From: Verrucomicrobiota bacterium
Lineage (GTDB): Bacteria > Verrucomicrobiota > Verrucomicrobiia > Chthoniobacterales > Terrimicrobiaceae
Length of the DNA: 64,000 nucleotides
Assembly: GCA_026398275.1 (NCBI GenBank)
Contig: JAPLTF010000070.1
Location: 1-64,000, forward strand
Direction: 5' to 3'
Shown here piece by piece: positions 1,299-17,854 of the stretch (positions are counted from its first letter, which is position 1; each line of letters begins with the position of its first letter). The translations under genes were made by a program, and so were the position numbers. The notes beneath the pieces are model-generated. The model saw only the letters and a program-made list of their open reading frames with translations. It did not search any database and was not told the origin of the DNA.

Positions 1299-2642
1299 AT
1301 GAAAATTAGAACACTCACCCTCGCGGTTCTTGTGGCGGCGGCTTCGGCTCAGTCGGGCCATGCCGATCAGGAAATTCTTATCACTGGAGCAACTGCCTTC
1401 CGAAAGGCCTCGATTGATGCTATCGTGGCGTTGTTTGACTCCGTTCAGGTTAACGCTCTTGCCAACTCGTATAACTACGCCACAAGCGCCAACGGAGTAG
1501 GCACCAACGTTGTCAACGCAGCGGGAGCCTCGACCTTCAAGGGGACTTTTCCCGGCATCACTGGCGTAACAACCATCCGTTGTTCGTGGAACGGCTCTGT
1601 AGAAGGCATTCGTGCCCTTGTCAGCCCCGGCGCCACCTACAATGCAAAGTATATTCAGGATGCGGGGATTGTGGGGGCCGGGGCCAACTACAGCAAGTCG
1701 GCCACAACTCAGCAAGCTGCTGACTTCGCGTTTTCAGACGTGCTTCAAAGCTCGACGCCGGAACTGACTCCCACTTTGAATGGTGGGTCGGTTGGCGTCG
1801 TGATCTTTTCGCTGCTGGCCAATAAGGGAAGCACCCTGTCGAGCATCACGACAAACCAGTTCAAGGATCTGTTCGGCAATGGATACACGAAGAAGTCGCT
1901 GCTCACGGGAAACAGCACCGACACAACACGTGTGTATGCAATCGGCCGCAACGATGGCTCTGGCACCCGCACAACCTACTTGTCATCAACCGGCCTCGGC
2001 GTGACAAGCAAGGTCAAACAATATGCCGCAACGACCACCGCCAATGGAACGTTTTCTGCCATACAGCTTATTCCTGATTCTGGAACGGGCGTTAATAGCG
2101 ACGGCAACGTCATCGTCAATGGAACACCTGTCACCGACTTCAAATCCACAATTTGGGGTAATGATTTCGTTGGTAATGGTGGATACCAGAGCGGCGGCAC
2201 GCTTGGCGGCGTCATGCAGATGACCTCGAGCGGCAACGTCACAGTGAAAGATGAGTATGGCGATGCGGTTCCTGCCCTCTCCGGCGGCAGCGTGGACCTG
2301 GTGACATTTATGGCGGCCGGCGACATCGCAGCCAACGTAGCCAATGTCAAAGTGCTTGCCTTCAATGGCGTTACCGTGACCCCTCAATCCAGCGGAGCTG
2401 TTGTCAGTTCCACCGACAAGGCGAAGGTCACCTCGGGAGCCTATGAAGCATGGGGTACAGAAAACCTCTACTATCGCGGAACCATTGGCACAGTTACGGG
2501 TGGATATAAGACATTCTACGATGCTCTGAAACTCAAACTTGCGGATTCCACCATCGTGGACGCATCCGGCGTCACCTTGGGTGAAATGAACGTGGCACGC
2601 ACGCCGACAGACGGTGGCATTATCGGCCCGAAAACCCGCTAA
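1299..2642 (+). CDS. Secreted PstS-like substrate-binding-fold protein
   Basis: The 447-residue protein has a signal peptide (MKIRTLTLAVLVAAASAQSG, cleavage near GHA-DQ). The mature start, ILITGATAFRKASIDAI, and the later stretch RNDGSGTRTTYLSSTGLG resemble periplasmic phosphate-binding (PstS-type) domains, where a DGSGT segment helps bind the oxyanion. An LFGNGYTKKS segment before it also fits that fold. There is no PEP-CTERM tail, lipobox or membrane anchor. No pstCAB transporter genes lie nearby, so a role as a surface or matrix phosphate-binding or structural protein is more likely than classical uptake. Its position 50 bases behind the PEP-CTERM gene suggests one transcript under the 180-229 element. 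Two stem-loops follow the stop. Confidence 0.65.
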   Translation: MKIRTLTLAVLVAAASAQSGHADQEILITGATAFRKASIDAIVALFDSVQVNALANSYNYATSANGVGTNVVNAAGASTFKGTFPGITGVTTIRCSWNGSVEGIRALVSPGATYNAKYIQDAGIVGAGANYSKSATTQQAADFAFSDVLQSSTPELTPTLNGGSVGVVIFSLLANKGSTLSSITTNQFKDLFGNGYTKKSLLTGNSTDTTRVYAIGRNDGSGTRTTYLSSTGLGVTSKVKQYAATTTANGTFSAIQLIPDSGTGVNSDGNVIVNGTPVTDFKSTIWGNDFVGNGGYQSGGTLGGVMQMTSSGNVTVKDEYGDAVPALSGGSVDLVTFMAAGDIAANVANVKVLAFNGVTVTPQSSGAVVSSTDKAKVTSGAYEAWGTENLYYRGTIGTVTGGYKTFYDALKLKLADSTIVDASGVTLGEMNVARTPTDGGIIGPKTR

Positions 2643-2742: not shown

Positions 2743-3465
2743 ATGGAAAAACAAATTCTTATCCCATTCCTGATCCTGGGATTTGTTGGTTTAGGGGTCT
2801 CTGCTTGGAGCCGGATATCCGGGCAAGTTTCCTCCCACCACGATGGCGCAACCAGCGCAACAAAGTCATTCAACGGCACACGAACCGAAACCAATTTCAG
2901 GCACGCACAAAACTCACAAGTCGTGCCCCCGCCCGCTCTTCAATCCAGCCTCAGTGCATCGCAGTCTGCTACTCCCCCTCCTGCCCCCGCTTTCTTCCCC
3001 CTTTCCAGTTCCCCTACAGCTCGCACTCAATCCAGCGGATTTGCAGCCTCATCCGAGCCGACAATACTAGGACCGCTCACAACGAACAGCTCGCCGGCCG
3101 GCATCAGCGCCACGCATGCGTCCAGGGCCAGTGCATTGTCAACGATCCCCGCCATCCCGGCTTCCGCTCCCACTCTGCAGCTCGACCTCGAGGACGGCGT
3201 TCCACTCCCAATAGCTGCTCTTCCCTCAAACACCCCAGTCACGCCGGCTGTGGCACAGAGCACAGAAAGCATTGCCGATAAATTTCAGAAGGAAGTGCAG
3301 GACGCGCTGGCCAGCCCGTCTGCCAGCGACCAAACGGTCTCAGAGGCCTACTGGGATGCTCAGGAACGTGCCGATCAAAACTACTGGGTCCTCTACGGCG
3401 ACACGGCATATAACCAGCAAAAAATCAATGCGCAGCTGGAAGCCTTGGGCTTGACCGGACGGTAG
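2743..3465 (+). CDS. Hypothetical membrane-anchored, Pro/Ser/Ala-rich protein
   Basis: The 240-residue protein has an N-terminal hydrophobic helix (ILIPFLILGFVGLGVSAW, about residues 5-22) acting as an uncleaved anchor or signal. A long linker (about 25-160) rich in Pro, Ser, Ala and Thr follows. The C-terminal part is more ordered and charged (SIADKFQKEVQDALASPSAS, then YWDAQERADQNYWVLYGDTA). I do not recognise a family. A membrane helix, a flexible stalk and a small tail domain fit an envelope-spanning adaptor. It sits between the PEP-CTERM/PstS-like pair and, convergently, the STT3-like gene (stops 22 bases apart). Confidence 0.6.
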   Translation: MEKQILIPFLILGFVGLGVSAWSRISGQVSSHHDGATSATKSFNGTRTETNFRHAQNSQVVPPPALQSSLSASQSATPPPAPAFFPLSSSPTARTQSSGFAASSEPTILGPLTTNSSPAGISATHASRASALSTIPAIPASAPTLQLDLEDGVPLPIAALPSNTPVTPAVAQSTESIADKFQKEVQDALASPSASDQTVSEAYWDAQERADQNYWVLYGDTAYNQQKINAQLEALGLTGR

Positions 3466-3487: not shown

Positions 3488-5749
3488 TTAGTGCGCAGCT
3501 TCTTCAGCTCTTTTTGTCTCGGCAGTTGAGAGGAGCGCCGCGATTTGCGGATCTGCTGGCGCATTATTCTGTGCCTGCTTCAGCTTGTCTGCCGCGCGAT
3601 CGTAGTCTCCGGCCTCCAGAAAATAGATTCCAGTGTTGAGCAACGCGTCGTGCGGCGATTGATCCGGCAGGACGGCAAAGATTCGCACCTTCTGATCGCC
3701 AAGTCCAAAAACCGTTGGGATGGGATAGAAAAGCGGGCGCAACCAATCGGGGCACTCATTCCCTTCGATGAGGTCAGCCAAAAAGGGTTTGGCGGCTGTC
3801 GGAGGGACCTTTCCTGACATTTTCAGCAGCCGGACATAGGCCTCGCCAAAGTCGTCCCACGAGGCGATCACAATATGGGTGATCCCCGCTTTCAGAAGGA
3901 GCTGCTTGGCCTCGTCAGGGCTCGTGGCGGCAAAGATTCGTGCAGCGCGCTCGAGCCCGGGGAGATTTTCCCAATATAAAGTTCCCAAGGTTCGAATCCC
4001 TCCATAGTAGCTGAGATCCGTCGAAGAATTCACCCCGGAAAGCACAACTGGCAGCCGGTCGGGATTGGCCTGGATGAGTTGGTGCGCAATATCCCGAAGG
4101 AGAATTGTTGGGGCCAGATCCTTTGGAAGATTGTCTGCCAATCTTCCCCGGCCGAGAAAAGCCATCGCAGATCTCAGGGGGAACACTATGACTGCCAGAA
4201 AAGCAATGATCAGGAGCAGCCAGCGCAAAGGGGCGGGAATCCGCCCCGGATAACCTCCGGAGGAATGCACCACAAGAACCATCACCGCGCAGACCAACCA
4301 GATCCCAAGCGCTATCGATGCCCAGCGGATCTGGAGCAGGGCAAGACACTCCATCAGGGCAGCGGGGAAAATCGGGAAGAGCAGCAGAACACAATTTTTG
4401 CGGGGAATCTTAGACAAAAAAACGAGCGAAAGTGTCCCGAGCACAACGAAAGCCGGCCAAAGAAAGGAATCGAGAAGGATGACAGCCGAACCGGAACCAG
4501 CAAGCGACTTCCACAAGCCTTGAAACTCCTGAATGTATTCCACGTGCAGCGAGAGCAAAAACTGGTCGGACACCCAGAAGAACAGGTCGCGTCTCAGAAC
4601 CACCAGGAGCGGCGGGGCCAGGACAAACGCGGTGGCTAGTAAGGATATTCTCCACTCTTTCGCACTGGAGGGCAGCCATTCCTCGCCGCGAATGCCCCGA
4701 ATCGCCCTGGCAATCAGTTCCCCCGCGCCCAACCACGCGAGAGCGTAAAGTGGATGGTTGACCTCCAGCCGCCAGCCGAGGTGGTCCGGAAAATATTCAA
4801 GTAGATAAAAAAACAAACACCCGATGCCTCCTGAGAATCCCCAAAGGCGCCACAGCTCGGGATGAGGGGAAACCTTACTCTCCCCTCCGTTCCGCCCGAT
4901 CCAAGCAGCCGCCAACGCTCCGAAACCGCACCCAATAAGGATCGGCACGAAAGTGGCAGCGCTCACCCATAGCGCGGCCGCCCCCAGAATGCCTGAGAGC
5001 ACGAACCATTTCCGGGCAGCAGACAAGGCTGGAAAAAGTTCAAGAGAAGCGGGGTTTTGCGTGCGCCGTTTGGCCGAGGGCAGCACAAAACCCGCCCCTC
5101 CACAGCAAATAGACAAAACACTCCCCATCGCAAACGCGAGCACAATGCCGTGATGGTCGCACTCCGCGAAACGAAATGATTGGCAGACAAAGCAGCAGGT
5201 CGCCAGGGCAATGCCGAAAAAGACCGCGAACCGGAATCCAAAGCGTTTTGCAACCATCCATCCCAAGCCGGCAATCGCGCAGGCGTAGAGGATCGGGCAC
5301 GCGTAGAAGGCCGCCTCAGGAAGGGTGTCTAAAACGCCCTTGCCGGTAATAGAACCGATAAGGCTGCTCAGGGCCGCAAGGACCCACATCAGCAGCGAAC
5401 TCCAGTGGACCTCGCGCCCATCCGGGGCATTGTCACGATCTGTCGTCCGTATCCGCAGGCTGCCCTGCTTGATCATCTCGGTCGTATGAATGATCCACCA
5501 TCGAGCATCCGCGGACGTCGCGGGAAGGATAGTCCACCTCTCTTGGGCACCGGGTGAAACTCGGACGGCATGAGCAGGGATTTCGCTGGTCTTGACCGCC
5601 GTTGCGGCGCGAATGAGGGAGAGGCGGAACAGCGAGTCGCACCAGAATGAGGACGCGGCAAGAATCACGCCAAGAACAAGGCAAAGAGCGCCCTTCCGGG
5701 AAAACAACAACGAGGGTCGCGAATCTCGCGAGTTTTCTCTTTTCTTCAT
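3488..5749 (-). CDS. STT3-like membrane glycosyltransferase with C-terminal TPR
   Basis: The 753-residue protein has a hydrophobic N-terminal half with many membrane segments. Three features match the oligosaccharyltransferase STT3/AglB/PglB superfamily: an acidic segment after the first helix (SADARWWIIHTTEM, about 79-92), PDGREVHWSSLL (about 109-120), resembling the family's PDG..HW segment, and CDHHGIVLAF (about 197-206), resembling its DHH motif. In that family these residues bind the metal and the lipid-linked sugar. The large C-terminal domain is soluble, and the last 50 residues (ALLNTGIYFLEAGDYDRAAD onward) look like a TPR. No WWDYG motif is obvious. The gene is next to the giant exoprotein, on the same strand and 102 bases downstream of it. 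Glycosylation of surface proteins is an inference; another GT-C enzyme is possible. Confidence 0.6.
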   Translation of the reverse strand: MKKRENSRDSRPSLLFSRKGALCLVLGVILAASSFWCDSLFRLSLIRAATAVKTSEIPAHAVRVSPGAQERWTILPATSADARWWIIHTTEMIKQGSLRIRTTDRDNAPDGREVHWSSLLMWVLAALSSLIGSITGKGVLDTLPEAAFYACPILYACAIAGLGWMVAKRFGFRFAVFFGIALATCCFVCQSFRFAECDHHGIVLAFAMGSVLSICCGGAGFVLPSAKRRTQNPASLELFPALSAARKWFVLSGILGAAALWVSAATFVPILIGCGFGALAAAWIGRNGGESKVSPHPELWRLWGFSGGIGCLFFYLLEYFPDHLGWRLEVNHPLYALAWLGAGELIARAIRGIRGEEWLPSSAKEWRISLLATAFVLAPPLLVVLRRDLFFWVSDQFLLSLHVEYIQEFQGLWKSLAGSGSAVILLDSFLWPAFVVLGTLSLVFLSKIPRKNCVLLLFPIFPAALMECLALLQIRWASIALGIWLVCAVMVLVVHSSGGYPGRIPAPLRWLLLIIAFLAVIVFPLRSAMAFLGRGRLADNLPKDLAPTILLRDIAHQLIQANPDRLPVVLSGVNSSTDLSYYGGIRTLGTLYWENLPGLERAARIFAATSPDEAKQLLLKAGITHIVIASWDDFGEAYVRLLKMSGKVPPTAAKPFLADLIEGNECPDWLRPLFYPIPTVFGLGDQKVRIFAVLPDQSPHDALLNTGIYFLEAGDYDRAADKLKQAQNNAPADPQIAALLSTAETKRAEEAAH

Positions 5750-5851: not shown

Positions 5852-8800
5852 TCACCCTTCATCGCTGTCACCGCCGCCATACCCTAACACCTCCACGGTG
5901 ATGATGGAGGGCGCATCTTCTGCGGGTTGGGCATTCTGCCTGGCTTGGTCCGCCACATTGCTGGCAGCGCTGTTCGCAGCGCTGTTGGCGGCGGCCCCGG
6001 AGGTCAGGCCGGCGACATTCGGGGCCGAGACAGTTGGGGTCGTGGGAACTCCGGCAGCGGTTCCCCCGGCGGAAATATTGCTGGCATTTAGCACTGCGGC
6101 AGCGGCGATTGCGAGGTTTCCGGTCGCCTGGATCCCGGCATCTCCGGCATCCACAGTTCCCACGGGGGCCACAAGCGCTACGTCTCCCGGCGCAATTCCC
6201 TCGACGGAGGCCAGAACGCCAATTCCACCGCCAGTGGCCAGGCCTCCGAGGTCCGTCGCGATGTCGGCGCTGGTCGAATCGATCAAGACCCGTGTCGGGG
6301 GAGCCGTTACCACCGTTTTTGGCGAGGTTCCCGCTGCAATATCTCCGGTCGATGACCAGATCGTGATGTCTCCGCCCCGAAGAGTGAAGATTCGCGCCCG
6401 GCCGATGTCCACGCTGCCGTTGGTGAAAATGGAGATGGCACCTCCGTATTCCGTAACCACCCCTGGAGGTGTGAGCGGATTTCCAAAAATGTCGGAGGCA
6501 AGGGTGAGGCCGCCATTTGGAGCCGCCATGGAGATCGCGCCGCCATTGGTCGTTCGAATGTCGCGGGCCCGGGTGAAGATCTCCCCGGTCCGGTCCGTAG
6601 CTCCGAACAGGGCTTCAATGGCCGCAAACCCATTCGCATAACTTTGTGTTGTGGCATAATCAAGGCCGGTTTGTTTTAGAGTCTCAAAGAAGGTGTCCAG
6701 TTCAGTGATAGCCCCTGCCTCGACCGCGCCAACACCTTGCCCGCCTGTCCCGGAACCGGGCAGACTCGCAAAGACAAGATCGCTGTCCACCATCCCCAAA
6801 GCCGCCCCGCCTGACTTTCCACCCACTCCGGCAAATACGAGAAGGCGGGCTCCATCGAATGGCAGGAACGGGTTTTTCGCATTTCCAATCGAGGTGATTC
6901 CGGTTCCCGTTCCGTTGGAGAAGTTTTCTCCGGTACCGAGATCTACGTTGCGACCGGCCAGGACTTCAGCCGCGCCGCCACCGCCGATCTGTATGTCCCC
7001 CGGCAGGATGCTCACCTGGCGCCCGAGCACCGTCTGCTGGGTCGGATCAACGACGATGTTGCCAAGAGCAATATTCGAGGCGAGGGCCCGAAGAGGGGCA
7101 TTCGCATTGTAGGGAAGCACATCGCGTCCAGCCGAAACAATCGACACGCTCTGGGAGTTGACATTCTGGATATAGAACGAAACATCCGTGATATCCTGAA
7201 ATGCGGAGATTTGAGCAGCCTTCGAAGAGTAGAGGGTGAGGCCTGTGATGTCTCCGCTGCCCGCATAAATTCGGACCGGGTTGAGATCCCCTGAATGAAT
7301 CGGGGTTGTTGCATGCCTGGCGCGGATGATGTCGATTCCTGCATCTGAGCCCGAGAATGAACCGGACTCCGTAAAGACCTGGTCGAAGTTGGCAAATACG
7401 GCCTTGCTGGTTTTATTAAGTTCGTCGATCGAGGGGGTGACGCCGTAATAGCCGAGCGGAGATGTCACGCCATAAATCGACGCGGGATCGGCATCAGACA
7501 GGTTGATCATTCCCGTTGACCAGGCCTTGAGGTCGCCTGAGGCATTGTTGCGAGTCAGTCCGGTTGGCTGAAGGCCGATCACGCCTCCTGACGCGGCTAG
7601 CTCAATTGTCCCTGTCGCAGACGGGAACAAATTCATCTTCCCAACGATATTCAGATCGCCGGAGAATGATGAACTTCGCAATATCGGGGGTGCGACACTC
7701 GTTGCCGTCGCAAAAGCAGTGACATCGGTCTCAGCCAGACGTGCCCAGGGCTGCCAATATGTTGAACGGTTTTGACTGTTGATATCATAGCTATTCTGTT
7801 TGTTCATCCACGCTATGAGGACGGGAGTGGCGGCGGACTCGTAAGGAAGAGTCTCGGCCAGTCGGTGAGTGATGCTGCCACCGACAGATGTGACATTCAC
7901 GCTTGAGTCAGACGAATAGGTGTTGAAGTAGGTCTTATACCAGAATTTATTATTCAACCCCTGCGGCATCAGGAAGGCATTGACAACCGGTCCCAAGACA
8001 ACATCCGACCTGGCGGAGACATCAAATGCCCCCTTGCCCAAATAGAGAGTCGTCGGCAACCATGTGGACGGATCATAAACTTCCGGATTTCGACTTTGGA
8101 TGATCGAATCGGCCTCGCTTGGAAGCGAAGAGGCGCTCAAAATTCCGAATGATGGCGAACGGGCGGCATTAGTGGTGACAGAGCCTCCTGCTGAAAGGAC
8201 GCCATGGCCCCCTTCCACATAATAGACGCCACCGTCAATATTGTTTCCGGCTTTGACCAAAACATCGCCGCCGCCATACTCCAGCAATTTGGAGGAGTCC
8301 GGAGCGATGTTGTTGACCCCGTCCGTCCCGGGCATCCTCGCGTTGGTGGGAGCCACCGCATCCGCATTCACGATATCATGCCCCGCGACCAGCGCAATAT
8401 TCCCGCCCCCGAGGGTGCCGAAGCCTTCGAAGAAATTGCTGAAGTCGATCCACCACGCTGTCGAGGCAGCCGTATCGGTGACGAAGCCTTCAGCTGTCGT
8501 GATCACGCCGGCGGCGCCGGTTCCAGGATCGTCGTAGCCGCGACGGTAGAGCCAGTTGCCGGGGAGTTGGTGGGAGGAATCAACGATTAGATTTCCGGAA
8601 CCATCTTGCGTATAGCGTCCGATGTTCCGACCCGCCGAAATCTGAACATTCCCGCCTGCCAGCGACCATTGCGCAATATACCTCTGCTGAACAGCGCCGA
8701 GCGATCCTTGGTCGGGGTGGAAATTCGGATTCACCGAAACGACCGGGGTCACGAAGTCCCCGGCGGAGTAGATCTTGGTGGGTGTGGGAATTCTCACACC

Positions 8801-11800
8801 CGCAGTGTAAATGCTCGCAAACTGGTTCCGGAGCTGGACATCGCGCCCGGCGTTGATTTCAATATCTCCGGTGCCCGTGCGGATGACCTGGTAGCGGGTG
8901 CCTGTGTTTGCACCTGTCGTGGAGACGCGGATGGAGTTCGCGGTCAGGCCGTCAGGCCCAAGAGCGACGCCCGCCCCAGAAGTGGCGCTGTTCGGGATTG
9001 CCTGATAGAAGCGCCCCAGCAAGACGGAACCTTTGTCGGCGGCAAGCTTATCAGGACGCAACACCGAATGGAAATCCACCGCACTAAGATCCGAGCCGGC
9101 GGCGATTCGGTAGGACCACGACTGGGCATTTGCAGGAAGTGTCTCGTTAAGCCCCATGAGCTGGGCCAGCCACATGGAGGAGTTGCCATTGGTGCTGGTG
9201 GGGTTCACTGCGGTGAAGCCGTCACTTAAAGTATTCCAGAAGACAATATTTCCGGAGGCCCTGAGCGTCAGCACGCCCGCAGCCGCTTTCGGCCCGAAGC
9301 GGAAGTCTCCCAGGTTCCAGTCGGAGCTCCAGATGGTCGAGGAGCTTCCGAGGCTGATGTCACCGTTTGGCGTTGTGTTGCTAATTTCCGCACCCGGCGC
9401 AATCACCAGCAATGAGGAAAGACCATTGGGATCCCCAGCACCCAAGAGCGCATCCTTCATGGCGGTGTATCCGGCGGTGGTGGTGCCTGCGGTCCCCAGG
9501 AACTGCACGCCATTGTCATAGACCAGCCGCTGTGTGGTGCCCGCCGCCAGGCTTGTTCCCGGCAGCCCATTGAATGTCGATCTCGTTCCGGTGATCTGGC
9601 CCGTGGCCCCGGAGACATTAAAGATTTTGTAGCCCTCGACCAAAATGCTCGACGCACCGATGATTTCGTCACGAAGTTCGCTGACGGCGACACCTAGGCC
9701 CGATCCTGTGGTTCGCTGTGGAGCCCTCAGATGGAGAGTCCCGGCGAATTGCCCGTTGAAGGCGCTCGAACCGGGCGTCGCATAATCACCAGCAACAAAA
9801 GAACCAACCGACAGATCGATCACGGAATCCATTTTGATATCCAGCAGCGCCGTGGGGCTCACGACTCCATTAGTGGCTGAGCCGGCTTCAATGCTGATCG
9901 ATCCGCCTTTCCCGGCATTGTCAAAGACCTCGCCATGTGCATCAAGTTTGGAGTTTGCCTCGAGAGTAATGCTTTCATGGGCGATCAGGTTGATTTCGCC
10001 TCCCGTTTTCCCATGAGCATCAATCGTCCCCACCACGTCAATCGATCCGGTGTCGGTGGAAAGAGTGAATCTTCTGGAAACATTGATTCCCGAAACCGTC
10101 ACGTCACCGGTCCGGATTCGCAGATTTCTCTCTTCCGTGAAGCCGCCAACGTCCAGCTGGGAAGCGAGATCGTCGAAAGAGGTCAGGCTTCCCGCATCCA
10201 GCAAAAAGGCGCCGCCATTCCCTGCAACTCCGGCGGCCGTCGGCGCTTTTCCGAGAAGAGTTCCCAGCGACTCAAACGGCCCCTGTGAATAGATTGCCAG
10301 CGTGCCCGCGCTGCCGCCGCCCGCCGCCGCAGACACGGAGACGAGGCTGTCCGCCTGCAGCGACACCCGTCCTGAGCCCGCAGAAATATTGACGATCCCC
10401 GCATCGGCGTAACGGGTCAGGTCATAGAAGGTTTGCGAATAGCCGCTGACATCAATTTGACCGCCCACCGCCACGTCTCCGGTCAAAGCCGTCAGGCTGA
10501 CAAGACCGGAGGGCAGAACGATCCTGGAGTCCGCAGTGATTGATGTGCCGCTCATGGCCAGGGTGGCCCCGAGTCCGCTCGCCACGGTGGCCTGACCGCT
10601 CGAGGCCAACATGTTCAAGGCACCGTCCGCCACGAGAGAATAGTTCGAGCCGGCTGCGCCTGCGATAAGCGGCGCGGTGATATTCAGATCACCTGCGCTC
10701 GCAAATGTTCCAACACCCTCGGTGAGAGCTCCCCCGGTTGTGACAAGATTGACCGCGGCGTATCCGGCGATCCCGAATCGATTTACTCCGAAGCGAACCG
10801 TTCCTGCCTGAACACGAAACTCGCCGGAAAGCGGACCCGCTGGCGCGGTCAAGCCGACGGCGGCGGAAGGATTTTCAAACGCCACGGAATCCGCCACGAA
10901 CAAAGCCGTCCCTGTTCCCTGATTGAAACCACGGATTCCAAATTCGGAAGCGGAGGTGAGCGGGTCGTCCCCTCCGGCACGGAACGTGAGATGGCGCAGC
11001 AACGTCGATCCAAAGTTGCCCGCCCCGTAAATATCGATCGACCGATAACTCCCGATGGTCAGCTGTTCCGCACTCTGAGCCTGGGCAAGCAGCGTTCCTG
11101 ACAGAACAAGCTGGGGAGTCACAGCGGCCCCGGGAAGCGCTCCGGCCTGGGGCTGGAGAAGGATGCTGACCTGCCCGCTGTTGAGGGTCAAAGCGGTTGC
11201 CTTGATGCCGGCCGAAGGATCAAAATCCGAGCCGTAAGAGGAATCCGCTATCACGCCGGTTCCCGAGATCTTGGCGCCGGCCCCGATTGTCAGGCGGGGG
11301 GCCGTCGAGCTGGTCACCCCGGTTCGAGTAGATGCAATACCGGAGCTTCCGCTAACCCAAAGCAAAGCGCCATCTCCAATGATGGAGAGCGGCGAGGCGC
11401 TTGCGGAAAGCGCACCGGAAGATTCGACGCTCGAACCCGCGTCCGCTGTCACAAATTGCCTGGCGGCAAGAAGGATTTCTGGACCCGAGAACGAGGAGCC
11501 CGCATTGGAAACCGTCACGCTGTTCGATCTCACATCCAGCGAAGTTCCCGTCGCGGTGCTCCTTCGCAAGCCGCCAATCAGCAGGCTCTCGATACCCCAG
11601 GACTTGAGAACACCCTCATTCAAGACGACCGTCGCACCCGAAGGAGCCGAACCGGAACCGCCGATGACATACATATCGGAGGCACTGCTCACATCTGCCG
11701 AGGCTCCCCGCCCGGTGCTCGCCGCAGCCGCCAGGACATTTCCGTAGAGTCGAAGACCGGCATTGCCCTGAATGGCAAGGTAGCCAGCATCAGCCGGCAG

Positions 11801-14800
11801 ACGCTGCGTGGAGTTTTGATTTGCCCGCTGTGCGGCCTCCGGCATGAAGCTGTTCGCGCTAAAAATATCGTAAGAAGAGCGGGCGCTGACGACGTTGGGA
11901 GGAGCGACTTCAAACAGGGATCTTGTCGCGGGCGTTTGAATAGTCGGATTGTAGGAATTCAAGCGATAGCCAGTCGTGTAGCTTGCTCCCTCCGCTGTGG
12001 TATGCTCCCCATTCGCAGAATTGGATTTTGGCGTGATCATGTAGGCACCCGGCAGCAGGGCATAGCGTTTCGGAAGCAGGGTATAGTAACCCGCCGACAG
12101 GCCGGGTGTGCCGTTCAGATAAATGCGATCACCGACACTGAGTGAGGAACTGACATAACCTGGCTCACCGCCCAAATCTCCCGCATTGGCACCGGTGTTG
12201 AACGCTCCATAAGGAGAGTAGTTGAATCCATAACCAGGAAGAACGGCATAGGACTTCGGCACCTCGCTCCAATACAAACCAATCGTTGGAACCGGGGAGG
12301 ACCCGAGTGCGATTGGGTCGATCGAAACCCGGGCGGACCATGTTTTTCCACCATAAGAGACAAGATCCGCAGCACTGTATTTGGTCGAGGCATTCCACAC
12401 GGAACCGGCCTCGCCAAAAAGATCGCGGCTGCCGCCCGTTCCAGCAACCCACCGGTAGGCCAGCAGGTCTCCGCCGCCCCGCAGATCCACAAGGGATCCT
12501 GCCTCTGTGGTGACATTGTTGGCTCCGATGGCGATCCGTTTAGCAGTCAGCCCCGAAAGCGTGATGTTCACACCGCTTGGATCGATCCAGGAAAGTCCAT
12601 CCGGACTTAAACCAAAAGGAACGATAATCTCCTGGCCGGTGGAGGGATCGACACCCGAAACGGACGTTGTGCTTCCGGAGGTGAGAACGACAGTTTGGGT
12701 TGTGGGGACCGTTTGCGTGCTGCCGGCCACGGCGTCAATGGGCCGGTCAAATGCGGGGGTGGAGGGAATAAAGTCGGTTCCGTCCCAGCCGAGCACGATG
12801 GAACCAAAGGGTGCGCGCAAGTTGCCGGCTTGGGTGATATTTGAGGCAAAGATTCGAATCGTTCCGGCGGCTGAGAATGGCAGCGGCCGGTTGCCCGCAG
12901 CGATGATCTTCACCGAGCCTTGTTGGGCAATTCCACCCGCTGTGTAGTCATAAGCAAAGATATCGAACGTTCCCAAAGTCGTTGGGTAAACCTGACCTGC
13001 ACGAAGAATAATATTGCCGGCCACACTGACCACGCCATTCCCCCGGATATCCCCTCCGATGGCATTCAATTCCAGTTTTCCGGTGTTTTGGAGAACCAGT
13101 GTTCCCAGATCAATCAACTGCGCATTCAGGGTCACGGAGCCTGCGCCATAGGTCGGCTTTGGATGGTAGGCGCTGGAACCATCTGGCCCGGGGGGATTTT
13201 GTTCGAAGGGGATGAATTGATCAGAAGGGTTAAGCGGCGGTCGGAATGCCTGACCGATGGCAATGTAGGGCGCACTCAAACTCACCGCGGCGTCGGAGAC
13301 GATCACCCCTCCACCGGCTACGCGCAGGGCACCCCGGGCATTGATCGTGATTGGGCCTTGGAACTGGACGTTTCCTCCATAAGGGACATCGCCGGAGGTG
13401 GTGTATTTGTAGCCAAGGTCGAGGGAGTCAAATCCTCCCGCACGAAAACTCGCCAAAGAAAAAAATCCCTGGCCGGAAATGATTCCGCCGCCCGAGTTCA
13501 ACACCGGTATGCCGACTCCCGGAGCGGAATTGTTCGAAGCGATAACCTGCCCGCTTTGGGTCACAGTGAGATTGATGTCCGCCCCGGTTTTTTGTGCCCC
13601 GGATGGGTAGAAACGCCCGGAAGACACAGCCAGCAAACCACCCGTCGCCGTGGGTCCGCCAGCAAAGCCAAGAAGCGTGGCATCGGAGAGGAGCATTTGT
13701 GAGCCCTCCAGAGAGATCGTTCCCCCGTTGCTGTCCACCTTTGTTGCAACGCCTCGCATCGCCCAGGGCTTTTGATTCAGGCCACTTCTGGCAGAAGGGG
13801 TGGCGGCGCTATCAGTTGCGGCAAGAACCGGGTCCAGATCCAGAATGCCGCTGGTCCCTGAAACATCGAGAACAGCACCTTTATCCGCGAGGATATTTCC
13901 CGACACCAGAATGGTCCCCCCGGAATAAACATTCCCCTGTCTCCGACCATATGGGTCCGGAGTAAGAACCGTTGTTCCTGTAGCCAGCAATTGGGAGTCC
14001 GGACCAAGAAAGACAGTCGGCAGGGCATTTGTAGCGGAGTCCTTGAGCAGCTTCGGAAGCCGGAATTCGCTTTTTCCTGCAACCGTAATTTTTCCTGCCG
14101 GGGCGATAATGGATCCCAGAACGGTGACAGTATCTCCACTGAGATTCACGCTTCCCAAGGGGTCCGTAATGATACTGGCTCCCTTTTCAACAATCACATC
14201 GCCACGCACCTCCAACACATCTTCTGTAAAGGAATCGTCAGCCCCAATTCCTTTGAGAGTGAGGCTTGCCGGTTGCCTCAAACCCTGCGGACTTAGGGTG
14301 GGATACAGATGGAATCCGTCGCCGGATTGCTGATACGAGGCCACCACCAACTGCTCGGCCACCGGCGCAACAACCGTCCCAGCCACGATCCGCACGGCCG
14401 GAATGTATTCTCCCGGTGTTTTCGAGGCTTTGCCGATGCCTGTCAGACTATAACTCGTAAAGCCGCCGCGCCTGAAAAACTTCGGTTGAAAAACCAAGGT
14501 GCTTGGATCGGTGGAAGAGCCTCCGATCTGGATCAGATTGGCTTGAATGGCGAGTTTTCCGCCTGTCGTTGCGGAGTAGGCCGAGAGCGATCCACCAAGC
14601 GTCAAGTCCCCACCGATGGTTGTCGCGAGAACCGGATCCTTCCCGGCAAGAAGAGAGATGCTGCCTCCTGTGCCATAGATGTATCCACCCAGCGGCTTCG
14701 CCCGGGCACCTCCGGAGGCATCAATCCGGCTGTGTTGTTCCAAGCTCACCGTGTAACCCTCAAGTGTCACGCTTCCGCCATTCAAAGAACGGGTCATATC

Positions 14801-17800
14801 GAAAGGTTGGGCTGCGGTCGAGCGCTCATCGATCAGCATGCCGGAGACGTCAAGCTGCTTCCCTTGAGCAAGGGATATGACGCCCCTTCCCGCCACGGGA
14901 AGCGGAGCGGCCACTCCCGAAAGACCTCCTGTTGCATTCAATTCGGCATAGAGAAAAGGGGAGTAGTTGTAGGCGGTGAAACTCAAGAATCCTCCCGGCG
15001 CCAACACATCTCCCCGGACAAAGACATTGGCGGCCCTCACGATGAGTCCGCCCCCGGCCGGGGTCAGAATCCGGGTTCCGGGAGCCACCACGACATCACC
15101 GTCCCGGTTGTCTATCGTCACCACGCCGAATCCCCCTGCGCCCGCCTCGTAAATCGAGGTTCCGATCGAAAAAGTTGTCCGCAGATCCGCAGGAAGCGCA
15201 TCTGCCGACCCATACGCGATGCTGAATTCCGGCGCGGACACCTGGGCTTTTCCTGAAACAAAATTGACCGTAGGTGCGTAGGGGGAGGCGTCCACGATCT
15301 GGAAGGGTGTCCCCGCGATTCCCAGTCGTTTTTCCGCGAGGAATGAGATCGAGAGCGAAGAAGATGCAGCCGGGGAATCGAGTTGGCGGGGGCCAGTGAT
15401 TGTTTGACCCACCAGATCACCTGCAATCACGAGGCTCGGAGCAATCAGGCTGATGCTTCCCCCGGCTGCTCCTGTGATAAACTCGCCGCTATTGTAGGCG
15501 CCGAGCGGCGCGAGCGCAGCCTGATACAGATTTGTGATGCCCCATTTTGTCGAACTGGCTGTCGAAGTGCCTTGGTAAGTGGAATTGTAAACCATATCCG
15601 GAGTGGCCTTGGCAATATCGACCAGGTTCCCGCCCCGGAGAACGCGCGATGTCAGGATCCTTCCGGCCTCATTCCGGAAGTAACCGCCGGAAACATCCAA
15701 CGTGGCCCCGTTTTGAACGATAATGCTCCCGCCACTTTGAATGCTCAACCTGCCGCCCTGGGCCGTGAGCTGGGCAACATTTCGCTGGATGATCGCAGCC
15801 GCTCCTGTCAGATCACCCAGCGGCGTGCCAACCCAATAAAATCCGTTATATGTCCCGTTTTTTCGGATATCAACAACAAGAGGTTGGCCGCGGAGAATGG
15901 AAGATCTCTGTAGCGGGGAGTCCGCCAGTTCGGATCCGCGGAGTTGCACCGTCAGAATGCTCTGAGCCATCGGCACGAAGACCGCTGTGCTCCCGCTGAT
16001 ATCCAGCAACGACCCGGAATCAAAATACGTTTGGCCTCCGGTAAAAGCAAAACGTTGTGAGGAGCCGCTAATGCTGCTGGCAAGCTCTGGCTCGGCGGTG
16101 GTGCCGTCAGCAAGAAAAATCGTCCTGTTGTCGTCGACGTCTTTGTAGGGCCAGATGCCAGCACGGAAGTTCACGTTGGCGTTTGGCGCCAGGAGGACGG
16201 ATCCATTTTGCATGTGGATCGTAAAGCCTTCGACATTTACCCGGGAGTTCTCCGGAAGACTGGTTCCTGGAATGGTTTTCGGGCTGGAATAGTCCGGCAA
16301 AATGCGCGTTACGCTTCCCGGACCGAAATTGACGGTTCCGGTGAATTGCGAAAGAAACGGGGGCCCGCCTCCGCCGGTCGCCGCAGCGTTGTCAAAATTT
16401 GGATTTGCGACAGCCCCGTAACTTGCGATGAGATCGATGCGGCCGTTCAGGCTGACCGAGGTGGAGCTTTCCACAATTCCCGACTGGTTGATTTCCTTGC
16501 CGGCGAGAATGGTGCTCCCTGTCAACGACTCGATGTATCCTTTGTTGGTGACAGAGCCGCCATAGGCGCCGACATTTCCCACCCAGACATCCAGACCTCT
16601 GAGGCTTGGATCGCTTTGAGCGTGTGCACGAATCCCCAGTTGGAGCCCGGCGGCCAATATCGTCTGCCCGCTCGGCGTGGAAATCGTTCCTTCATTTTCC
16701 ACGTTGGCACCGACCAAAATCACCCTTCCCCCATTGCCATCCGCGCTAACCGGTCCGGAAATCATGGCTCCCTTCTGCACGACGATATTCCCGACTTTTC
16801 CATCCGGGGTAAGCGGGGCATCGGGAACAAAAGCCGACGTTCCATCTGCCCCTCCCGAAATGGGAAGCGCGGAGAACAAAAATTGCGCATCCTTGTTGTT
16901 GAGAAGCCCGCTGGAGATCAGGTTCAGGTTAATAGGGAGCGAGGAGGCAACGAGCGTGCGAGTGTTCACCTGGCTGCTGCCGCCGAAGATGATGCCGTTC
17001 TGGTTGATGACGTAGACTTGGCCGTCGGCGTTGATTTTTCCGAGGATTTTTGAGGGGACGCCGCTGGGATCGAAGACCTTGTTGAAGGCGATCCATTTGC
17101 CGGAGTCGTTGCCGCCGGCGCTCTGGTCGAAGTTGAGGGTCGTGTTCTTTCCGACGTTGAAGGTTTTCCAGTCGAGGAGGGCCTGGGATTTGAGCTGTTT
17201 GATGTTGACGATGCCGCCGGACTGGGTGGGGGCATTGGCGCCGGTCCATTTGCCGCCGGGAAGGCGTTCGAGTCCTCCGGTAACGAGTCCGTCCGGGACG
17301 GTGAGGGCGGATCCCGCCGCGCGGGCGGACGACTGCATCTGCCGCATGTCGTTGATGGCCTTGGTCGTTCGGGCGAGGCGGTCGGCGGCTTTGATTCTGG
17401 CGATTTCGGCGGCCTGGGCTCCCGCATTGGCCCGGGCGTCGGCGGCCATGCGCCCGTTGGCGGATGTTGCTCCGCCCCGCAGGATGTCCCCGGCTTGGGC
17501 GGTGGGAACCAGGTAGGCAAAAAAGAGCAAAACCAGCGCGATAGCGCTTTGTAGAAAGGGACACAGTCGGATGTTTGGCCCAGGGAACCAGGCGGCGAGG
17601 GGAGCCGCTCGGAAAATCAGCGCGATAGCGCATCCGTGATAGGGGAAGCTCGAGTGTTTTGGCTGGGGAGCCAACACTGCCGGAGGTAGCCCGCAGGGTG
17701 AGACACGCGGGAGCGTGCGAGGCATCGCAACCAGAGCGAAGCGGAGCAAGGATGAAGGATGGGCGAGCAACGCTCCGCCTTTTGCGCCGCGACGCACCCT

Positions 17801-17854
17801 GCCTTGGGAGGCTTGTCGGGCGGAGGAATTTTGGTCGGTCCGAGGCATGGGCAA
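5852..17854 (-). CDS. Giant filamentous haemagglutinin-type exoprotein (TPS domain)
   Basis: This is an uninterrupted 4000-codon frame. A hydrophobic signal segment ending AYLVPTAQA lies near residues 101-121. It precedes a haemagglutination-activity/TPS domain (about 175-330) with the hallmark NQNGIIFGGSSQVNTRTLVA near 281-300. The rest is Gly/Ser/Ala/Thr-rich sequence with short hydrophobic beta strands, as in right-handed beta-helix adhesins. A module near 1818-1865 (STKYSAADLVSYGGKTWSA, ending YWSEVP) resembles small chitin-binding CBM5/12 domains. The C-terminus is SIITVEVLGYGGGDSDEG, with no autotransporter barrel. TPS proteins are normally exported by a TpsB/FhaC porin, which is absent here. 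The true start is uncertain: residues 1-100 are unusual, and GTG (17677) or ATG (17725) are alternatives. The conserved 50-bp element lies just upstream. Confidence 0.88.
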   Translation of the reverse strand: MPMPRTDQNSSARQASQGRVRRGAKGGALLAHPSSLLRFALVAMPRTLPRVSPCGLPPAVLAPQPKHSSFPYHGCAIALIFRAAPLAAWFPGPNIRLCPFLQSAIALVLLFFAYLVPTAQAGDILRGGATSANGRMAADARANAGAQAAEIARIKAADRLARTTKAINDMRQMQSSARAAGSALTVPDGLVTGGLERLPGGKWTGANAPTQSGGIVNIKQLKSQALLDWKTFNVGKNTTLNFDQSAGGNDSGKWIAFNKVFDPSGVPSKILGKINADGQVYVINQNGIIFGGSSQVNTRTLVASSLPINLNLISSGLLNNKDAQFLFSALPISGGADGTSAFVPDAPLTPDGKVGNIVVQKGAMISGPVSADGNGGRVILVGANVENEGTISTPSGQTILAAGLQLGIRAHAQSDPSLRGLDVWVGNVGAYGGSVTNKGYIESLTGSTILAGKEINQSGIVESSTSVSLNGRIDLIASYGAVANPNFDNAAATGGGGPPFLSQFTGTVNFGPGSVTRILPDYSSPKTIPGTSLPENSRVNVEGFTIHMQNGSVLLAPNANVNFRAGIWPYKDVDDNRTIFLADGTTAEPELASSISGSSQRFAFTGGQTYFDSGSLLDISGSTAVFVPMAQSILTVQLRGSELADSPLQRSSILRGQPLVVDIRKNGTYNGFYWVGTPLGDLTGAAAIIQRNVAQLTAQGGRLSIQSGGSIIVQNGATLDVSGGYFRNEAGRILTSRVLRGGNLVDIAKATPDMVYNSTYQGTSTASSTKWGITNLYQAALAPLGAYNSGEFITGAAGGSISLIAPSLVIAGDLVGQTITGPRQLDSPAASSSLSISFLAEKRLGIAGTPFQIVDASPYAPTVNFVSGKAQVSAPEFSIAYGSADALPADLRTTFSIGTSIYEAGAGGFGVVTIDNRDGDVVVAPGTRILTPAGGGLIVRAANVFVRGDVLAPGGFLSFTAYNYSPFLYAELNATGGLSGVAAPLPVAGRGVISLAQGKQLDVSGMLIDERSTAAQPFDMTRSLNGGSVTLEGYTVSLEQHSRIDASGGARAKPLGGYIYGTGGSISLLAGKDPVLATTIGGDLTLGGSLSAYSATTGGKLAIQANLIQIGGSSTDPSTLVFQPKFFRRGGFTSYSLTGIGKASKTPGEYIPAVRIVAGTVVAPVAEQLVVASYQQSGDGFHLYPTLSPQGLRQPASLTLKGIGADDSFTEDVLEVRGDVIVEKGASIITDPLGSVNLSGDTVTVLGSIIAPAGKITVAGKSEFRLPKLLKDSATNALPTVFLGPDSQLLATGTTVLTPDPYGRRQGNVYSGGTILVSGNILADKGAVLDVSGTSGILDLDPVLAATDSAATPSARSGLNQKPWAMRGVATKVDSNGGTISLEGSQMLLSDATLLGFAGGPTATGGLLAVSSGRFYPSGAQKTGADINLTVTQSGQVIASNNSAPGVGIPVLNSGGGIISGQGFFSLASFRAGGFDSLDLGYKYTTSGDVPYGGNVQFQGPITINARGALRVAGGGVIVSDAAVSLSAPYIAIGQAFRPPLNPSDQFIPFEQNPPGPDGSSAYHPKPTYGAGSVTLNAQLIDLGTLVLQNTGKLELNAIGGDIRGNGVVSVAGNIILRAGQVYPTTLGTFDIFAYDYTAGGIAQQGSVKIIAAGNRPLPFSAAGTIRIFASNITQAGNLRAPFGSIVLGWDGTDFIPSTPAFDRPIDAVAGSTQTVPTTQTVVLTSGSTTSVSGVDPSTGQEIIVPFGLSPDGLSWIDPSGVNITLSGLTAKRIAIGANNVTTEAGSLVDLRGGGDLLAYRWVAGTGGSRDLFGEAGSVWNASTKYSAADLVSYGGKTWSARVSIDPIALGSSPVPTIGLYWSEVPKSYAVLPGYGFNYSPYGAFNTGANAGDLGGEPGYVSSSLSVGDRIYLNGTPGLSAGYYTLLPKRYALLPGAYMITPKSNSANGEHTTAEGASYTTGYRLNSYNPTIQTPATRSLFEVAPPNVVSARSSYDIFSANSFMPEAAQRANQNSTQRLPADAGYLAIQGNAGLRLYGNVLAAAASTGRGASADVSSASDMYVIGGSGSAPSGATVVLNEGVLKSWGIESLLIGGLRRSTATGTSLDVRSNSVTVSNAGSSFSGPEILLAARQFVTADAGSSVESSGALSASASPLSIIGDGALLWVSGSSGIASTRTGVTSSTAPRLTIGAGAKISGTGVIADSSYGSDFDPSAGIKATALTLNSGQVSILLQPQAGALPGAAVTPQLVLSGTLLAQAQSAEQLTIGSYRSIDIYGAGNFGSTLLRHLTFRAGGDDPLTSASEFGIRGFNQGTGTALFVADSVAFENPSAAVGLTAPAGPLSGEFRVQAGTVRFGVNRFGIAGYAAVNLVTTGGALTEGVGTFASAGDLNITAPLIAGAAGSNYSLVADGALNMLASSGQATVASGLGATLAMSGTSITADSRIVLPSGLVSLTALTGDVAVGGQIDVSGYSQTFYDLTRYADAGIVNISAGSGRVSLQADSLVSVSAAAGGGSAGTLAIYSQGPFESLGTLLGKAPTAAGVAGNGGAFLLDAGSLTSFDDLASQLDVGGFTEERNLRIRTGDVTVSGINVSRRFTLSTDTGSIDVVGTIDAHGKTGGEINLIAHESITLEANSKLDAHGEVFDNAGKGGSISIEAGSATNGVVSPTALLDIKMDSVIDLSVGSFVAGDYATPGSSAFNGQFAGTLHLRAPQRTTGSGLGVAVSELRDEIIGASSILVEGYKIFNVSGATGQITGTRSTFNGLPGTSLAAGTTQRLVYDNGVQFLGTAGTTTAGYTAMKDALLGAGDPNGLSSLLVIAPGAEISNTTPNGDISLGSSSTIWSSDWNLGDFRFGPKAAAGVLTLRASGNIVFWNTLSDGFTAVNPTSTNGNSSMWLAQLMGLNETLPANAQSWSYRIAAGSDLSAVDFHSVLRPDKLAADKGSVLLGRFYQAIPNSATSGAGVALGPDGLTANSIRVSTTGANTGTRYQVIRTGTGDIEINAGRDVQLRNQFASIYTAGVRIPTPTKIYSAGDFVTPVVSVNPNFHPDQGSLGAVQQRYIAQWSLAGGNVQISAGRNIGRYTQDGSGNLIVDSSHQLPGNWLYRRGYDDPGTGAAGVITTAEGFVTDTAASTAWWIDFSNFFEGFGTLGGGNIALVAGHDIVNADAVAPTNARMPGTDGVNNIAPDSSKLLEYGGGDVLVKAGNNIDGGVYYVEGGHGVLSAGGSVTTNAARSPSFGILSASSLPSEADSIIQSRNPEVYDPSTWLPTTLYLGKGAFDVSARSDVVLGPVVNAFLMPQGLNNKFWYKTYFNTYSSDSSVNVTSVGGSITHRLAETLPYESAATPVLIAWMNKQNSYDINSQNRSTYWQPWARLAETDVTAFATATSVAPPILRSSSFSGDLNIVGKMNLFPSATGTIELAASGGVIGLQPTGLTRNNASGDLKAWSTGMINLSDADPASIYGVTSPLGYYGVTPSIDELNKTSKAVFANFDQVFTESGSFSGSDAGIDIIRARHATTPIHSGDLNPVRIYAGSGDITGLTLYSSKAAQISAFQDITDVSFYIQNVNSQSVSIVSAGRDVLPYNANAPLRALASNIALGNIVVDPTQQTVLGRQVSILPGDIQIGGGGAAEVLAGRNVDLGTGENFSNGTGTGITSIGNAKNPFLPFDGARLLVFAGVGGKSGGAALGMVDSDLVFASLPGSGTGGQGVGAVEAGAITELDTFFETLKQTGLDYATTQSYANGFAAIEALFGATDRTGEIFTRARDIRTTNGGAISMAAPNGGLTLASDIFGNPLTPPGVVTEYGGAISIFTNGSVDIGRARIFTLRGGDITIWSSTGDIAAGTSPKTVVTAPPTRVLIDSTSADIATDLGGLATGGGIGVLASVEGIAPGDVALVAPVGTVDAGDAGIQATGNLAIAAAAVLNASNISAGGTAAGVPTTPTVSAPNVAGLTSGAAANSAANSAASNVADQARQNAQPAEDAPSIITVEVLGYGGGDSDEG
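17527..17674 (-). repeat. Diverged 84-bp-spaced duplication at the exoprotein signal region
   Basis: Two segments, 17527-17590 and 17611-17674, resemble each other. Both contain CAGCGCGATAGCGC (17534-17547 and 17618-17631, exactly 84 bases apart) and related flanks that read in protein as CAIALI and SAIALVL, each preceded by a Pro-containing stretch. The spacing is a multiple of three, so the exoprotein frame stays open. This suggests that the region coding for the signal peptide was duplicated in tandem and that the upstream copy is now extra 5' sequence. Confidence 0.55.

Follow-up and report, generated by a model that had tools for sequence, protein, structure and literature searches.

A giant two-partner secretion exoprotein with a near-invariant tail motif belongs to a class associated with a TonB-linked TpsB operon

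The stretch of DNA analysed here, which we call the window, comprises 64,000 nucleotides (G000:C96:1-64000) that begin at base 1 of their own contig, in an assembly of 117 contigs that is 98.7% complete with an estimated contamination of 3.8%. On its minus strand, a detail that the original prediction had not supplied, the translation of positions 5852-17854 gives 4000 codons without interruption, and thus the earlier claim of an intact 12-kb frame is borne out. The first possible start is a TTG at 17854, further in-frame ATG codons are located at 17848 and 17725, and the protein, for which several start codons are possible, is at most 4000 residues long. The frame encodes a giant two-partner secretion (TPS) exoprotein, or TpsA, with matches to both PF05860 and PF12545. 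A signal-peptide-like hydrophobic stretch spans residues about 98-122 (17489-17563, minus strand), according to the translation and a comparison with the N-terminus of a paralogue encoded on contig C1, with which the predicted mature start AGDILRGG, after residue ~122, is shared. The TPS secretion domain occupies residues 215-401 (16652-17212, minus strand; PF05860, E 3e-15; TIGR01901, E 3.5e-17), which agrees with the earlier description of a TPS-type exoprotein.

The other end of the protein is organized into three parts, all on the minus strand. A DUF3739 domain, labelled by Pfam as a filamentous haemagglutinin family outer membrane protein, covers residues 3827-3938 (6041-6376; PF12545, E 3e-27). 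It is folded with good confidence in an AlphaFold2 model, and a fold search of this region against the PDB returned no significant match. This domain is followed by a variable linker rich in A, S, N and Q (residues 3939-3981; 5912-6040) that is poorly conserved and is modeled with pLDDT values of 37-51 from residue 3942 on, and then by the tail motif PSIITVEVLGYGGG (residues 3982-3995; 5870-5911), such that the C-terminal end of the protein reads SIITVEVLGYGGGDSDEG. No translocator barrel family in Pfam matched the protein, again as originally claimed for its C-terminus. Its only cysteines, at residues 54, 75 and 98, all lie within the presequence. By its sequence the protein would be classed as type Vb, with a TPS domain, no barrel of its own and a TpsB encoded in the same genome. 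We also considered a CdiA-type CDI toxin and rejected this identity, since the C-terminus is conserved rather than polymorphic in about 110 homologues and the gene next to tpsA, where an immunity gene was considered, is oligosaccharyltransferase-like.

That neighboring gene (3488-5749, minus strand) begins 102 bp downstream of tpsA in the same direction and encodes a predicted STT3/PglB-like oligosaccharyltransferase with a TPR-like C-terminal part. The top PDB fold matches of its AlphaFold2 model are STT3, AglB, DPY19 and PglB, and a similar gene follows tpsA in six relatives (L069, L071, L081, L084, L094 and L099). Judging from this model, the enzyme may glycosylate the adhesin; HMW1 is a TpsA that is glycosylated by another enzyme. 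On the opposite strand, positions 1299-2642 (plus) encode a PstS-like secreted substrate-binding protein with a weak match to phosphate-binding proteins. Relatives of this protein occur in many loci: one is near the tpsA gene on contig C1 (L008:2427-4094, minus strand), about a third of the relatives carry one no more than 10 kb from tpsA, and in Methylosinus and Cupriavidus the annotation places substrate-binding proteins beside tpsA. A comparable gene cluster of Pseudomonas aeruginosa is under phosphate control (PMC7035377), and by analogy a phosphate link may be general for DUF3739 tpsA loci. Between the two neighboring genes, positions 2743-3465 (plus) encode a secreted-looking protein of 240 residues, rich in S, P and A, that matches no family and has weak relatives near DUF3739 tpsA genes in L090, L115 and L167.

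Profile searches detected no TpsB gene in the window or in the flank that was searched, as had been stated for the window. The genome-wide search for POTRA-barrel genes that the original prediction proposed returned exactly one gene with POTRA_2 and ShlB domains, located on contig C1 (about C1:58855-60573). This gene resides about 59 kb from the nearer end of that contig, and so we reject the notion of a tpsB gene adjoining the window, an arrangement that would have spoken against the earlier reading. This tpsB gene and a second giant tpsA gene, whose product (P0008) has 3850 residues, diverge from each other. No TPS domain and no full DUF3739 domain occurs in the genome apart from those of P0008 and the window TpsA. 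The TPS domains of the two proteins are 68% identical, their DUF3739 domains 71% and their final motifs 93%, compared to 48% for the body, as might be expected of two substrates of one exporter. This sequence evidence favors a single, unlinked TpsB that serves both proteins, with the window TpsA most likely as its second substrate.

The term orphan, as originally applied to this gene, therefore holds locally and fails for the genome as a whole. Similarly, the suggestion that the partner is elsewhere or that the export route differs is upheld in its first half, while a single TpsB beside a paralogous TpsA makes a different route unnecessary. More than one tpsA per tpsB is also found in genome G333 and on a Klebsiella plasmid, and several orphan tpsA genes per tpsB were noted in 2009 for Rhodopseudomonas (R. 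palustris) and Janthinobacterium (PMC2729926), which makes the state of the window gene ordinary. A true orphan that leaves the cell by some route independent of TpsB would account for the lack of a TpsB gene in the window and searched flank, but the intact gene on C1, the two TPS domains that are 68% identical and the frequency of such many-to-one arrangements render this scenario scarcely credible.

The C-terminal end, which had been described as conserved-looking, proved to be strongly conserved. Homologues were drawn mostly from one phylum, sampled with 387 genomes of which 12 carry DUF3739, along with a few plasmids, and a genome scan for DUF3739 loci yielded 80 loci. The consensus of the tail motif is S-x-I-[TS]-V-E-V-[LI]-G-Y-G, and S-x-x-[TS]-V-E-[VI]-[LI]-G-Y-G or a close variant is present in 93 of the 95 complete C-termini from the phylum. 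The two exceptions, L108 and L134, retain a degenerate core (SIFTVEVLVSDGG and NVSVEVSFGESDD, respectively). In 62 of 65 long relatives, a pattern of the V-E-V-x-G-Y-G type occurs within the C-terminal 120 residues, compared to only 6 matches in 224,000 residues elsewhere in the same proteins, and shuffled versions of the window TpsA tail match it 0.2% of the time. These frequencies place the motif far from chance. Among 56 aligned sequences, conservation averages 3.5 bits per column in the motif but is only about 1-1.5 bits in linker residues 3965-3981, and S3983, G3991, Y3992 and G3993 are invariant.

Conservation of this element extends beyond the phylum. Although a plasmid search with 136 residues at an E-value limit of 1e-5 found nothing, a longer query at a loose limit recovered 15 records. 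These Proteobacterial plasmid homologues all end in recognizable variants of the motif (for example PSTISVEILGYG, PSVFTVRVLGFG and PSIVTVEVIGYG), the most divergent of which is KSIMVDVVGFG. In six relatives that form a subgroup (L016, L017, L026, L028, L138 and L145), the motif and a variable stretch are followed by the ending P-[PVI]-Q-A-S-L, which by sequence appears to be a second, lineage-specific terminal signature.

We noted that, beyond about residue 3941, the AlphaFold2 model leaves the chain unpacked, the motif included. The linker is thus probably disordered, and we rejected the idea that the motif, with pLDDT of about 45-50, caps DUF3739 within the same molecule. Such a short stretch, almost invariant in sequence yet carried on a variable and disordered tether, looks like a docking motif, and the original suggestion of a sorting or anchoring signal is a reasonable guess at its function. 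If the tail were instead fully exported, the motif might serve as an extracellular signal for surface attachment or self-association. Its conservation, often with acidic residues after it, would suit such a role, but an unsystematic look turned up no co-conserved cell-surface sorting enzyme, and we consider this explanation highly unlikely.

The original prediction did not foresee the nature of the operon to which the TpsB gene belongs, which includes a proton-driven TonB/ExbB/ExbD motor and always accompanies this DUF3739 class of TpsA. On contig C1, the gene order is TpsB, ExbB, ExbD, TonB (TonB_2) and Porin_5. The ExbB protein carries an N-terminal DUF2341/laminin-G part in front of its channel (L008:18576 to L009:649), and the porin (L009:1748-4156) has a long proline-rich N-terminal part. 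DUF2341 has been named as an unexplained addition to ExbB-like proteins (PMC12505986), and the constant association of the DUF2341-ExbB fusion with DUF3739 TpsA proteins offers a lead to its role. The same order is found in ten loci of related genomes, two of which are clipped by contig ends. In a twelfth genome (G215), the contig starts inside ExbB and continues with ExbD, TonB and Porin_5, and then the N-terminus of a TPS protein.

Several observations indicate that this association is specific. First, a search of all 387 genomes for orthologues of the ExbB fusion found one in 12 of 12 genomes with DUF3739 (full-length in 11, plus the fragment in G215) and in 0 of 375 others, where weaker matches were confined to the final 50 residues or to the laminin-G/DUF2341 part. 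The corresponding Fisher p-value is 5e-23, or 2e-14 when counted by genus, neither being corrected for ancestry, and all of the co-occurrence data can partly reflect common descent. Second, the Verrucomicrobiota genomes with DUF3739 also contain six further TpsB genes that serve as an internal control. None of the six has an ExbB, ExbD or TonB gene beside it, and the two TpsA proteins without DUF3739 that adjoin control TpsBs end differently. Third, the TonB-linked TpsB proteins, including the one from Klebsiella, form one clade with support of 100/100, and the branches of the controls are long. Fourth, plasmids of Methylosinus and Klebsiella carry the same kind of operon.

Profile searches detected no Plug domain and no TonB-dependent-receptor barrel in the genome of the window, and therefore the TonB protein of the operon lacks its customary receptor client there. 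One might argue that the complex serves the Porin_5 protein or an unrecognized outer-membrane client in nutrient uptake or signalling, that its link to TpsA is regulatory, for instance through phosphate starvation, and that the role of the motif is unrelated. The position of the porin within the operon, the recurrence of PstS-like proteins as neighbors and the response of the P. aeruginosa cluster to phosphate starvation (PMC7035377) would all be compatible with this interpretation. However, it must contend with the absence of a receptor from the genome and with the restriction of the operon to DUF3739 TpsA proteins across two phyla, and we judge it to be quite unlikely.

As an explanation for the tail, we instead propose that these proteins constitute a TonB-linked TPS subclass in which the window TpsA is exported by the C1 TpsB while its tail docks in the periplasm with the apparatus of the operon, a proposal to which we give about even weight. 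The protein would first be exported by Sec, whereupon its TPS domain would engage the C1 TpsB and the beta-rich body would be threaded outward with the N-terminus leading. The disordered linker with the motif PSIITVEVLGYG would arrive last and stay in the periplasm. There the tail would dock with the operon apparatus, most likely TonB, by beta-strand addition, so that the adhesin would be retained at the inner membrane or acted upon from there. We infer the pairing with the C1 TpsB, the periplasmic retention of the tail and the identity of TonB as its docking partner.

TonB is the most attractive partner for the tail: it recognizes short beta-prone segments through strand addition, and proteins are among the things it can act upon. 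Examples are the import of colicins and import by FusB (PMC7593965), and the export of PopC via Oar (PMC6434023). The Oar/PopC system of Myxococcus and the FusB/ferredoxin system thus resemble our proposal in that TonB/ExbBD takes part in protein export or acts directly on a protein, but the pores in those systems are TonB-dependent receptors and not a TpsB. Three points count against our proposal. The motif does not qualify as a canonical TonB box: when 29 TonB boxes from receptors of sister genomes were compiled into a profile, the motif reached a median rank of 75 of about 3600 windows, and permuted profiles perform equally well. In addition, TonB_2 is encoded a second time in the genome, which also has ten ExbD domains. 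Finally, no gradient powers type V secretion according to a published review (PMC5422565).

The same mismatch with the TonB box would favor an arrangement wherein the motif is a retention plug that binds the pore or POTRA domains of TpsB, and the TonB complex acts otherwise or only on TpsB. Conservation of the motif goes together with a distinct TpsB clade, and so a site on TpsB would serve as well as one on TonB. Moreover, retention of the C-terminus at or below the pore is established for HMW1, HxuA and CdrA (PMC5422565, PMC7616799), and it would be shared by the tail described here. Those proteins rely on a disulfide loop or cysteine hook, whereas the window TpsA has no cysteine after residue 98; we have rejected a hook of the HMW1/CdrA type for its mature part, and a plug would lack the known kind of hook. 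This explanation also leaves the constant presence of the TonB/ExbBD operon unaccounted for, and we find it somewhat unlikely.

Our proposal of a TonB-docked tail can be taken one step further, although only tentatively and with distinctly less than even confidence. A dedicated TonB/ExbB/ExbD complex might grip the periplasmic tail motif of giant TpsA adhesins and either power the end of secretion or tether, tension or release the adhesin. If true, such a TPS system coupled to the proton motive force would break with the principle that type V secretion is not powered by an ion gradient. The review regards the driving force of two-partner secretion, in the absence of an energy source, as an open question (PMC5422565). 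That question becomes directly testable in a recognizable subclass that has a TonB motor of its own and a tail motif that hardly varies.

The window TpsA resembles FHA/FhaC, HMW1, EtpA and other classical TPS systems in its TPS domain, in the lack of a barrel of its own and in its probable reliance on a TpsB exporter. To our knowledge, neither a TonB/ExbBD operon nor a DUF3739 tail has been described for those systems. The closest known relative is the P. aeruginosa PdtA/PdtB-exbB2-exbD2-tonB4-PA0696 cluster (PUMA3/VreI), in which a giant TpsA is accompanied by TpsB and then ExbB, ExbD, TonB and a putative porin (PMC2729926, PMC7035377), a likeness at the level of published operon content. The C1 operon fits this PdtAB/PUMA3-like pattern of TpsB-ExbB-ExbD-TonB-porin. 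The tpsA and tpsB genes of P. aeruginosa are neighbors controlled by a sigma factor and PhoB, whereas the window tpsA is on another contig and is unlinked to the C1 operon. That TonB genes can be linked to TPS genes of this kind has therefore been recorded before. In the literature searched, which covers few subscription papers, we found no description of the tail motif, its exclusive association with the TonB operon or the TonB-linked TpsB clade, no mention of DUF3739, and nothing on TpsA tails in connection with the TonB box. The TonB system of P. aeruginosa has been described as uncharacterized (PMC7035377), and the motif and its co-occurrence with the operon offer a candidate client for it.

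Some individual homologues are unusual in their arrangement. On the conjugative plasmid pKqq_SB98_1 of Klebsiella quasipneumoniae (L168:5946-40651), there are two giant DUF3739 tpsA genes. Each is preceded by a separate group of STN/TonB-receptor-like, sigma factor and FecR/DUF4880 genes, and a single TpsB-ExbB-ExbD set follows the second tpsA. The tpsA of a Methylosinus trichosporium OB3b plasmid (L171:7801-20843) is represented in the annotation by two overlapping genes, a sign that its frame may be broken. In genome G215, the assembly breaks inside the TPS domain (L165, L166 and L167, corresponding to contigs C59, C75 and C30): two tpsA genes, which give equal matches, begin at the ends of C30 and C75, and the end of C59 lies within a TPS domain. 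This pattern suggests that the tpsA genes of G215 have near-identical 5′ ends and underwent recent duplication or recombination.
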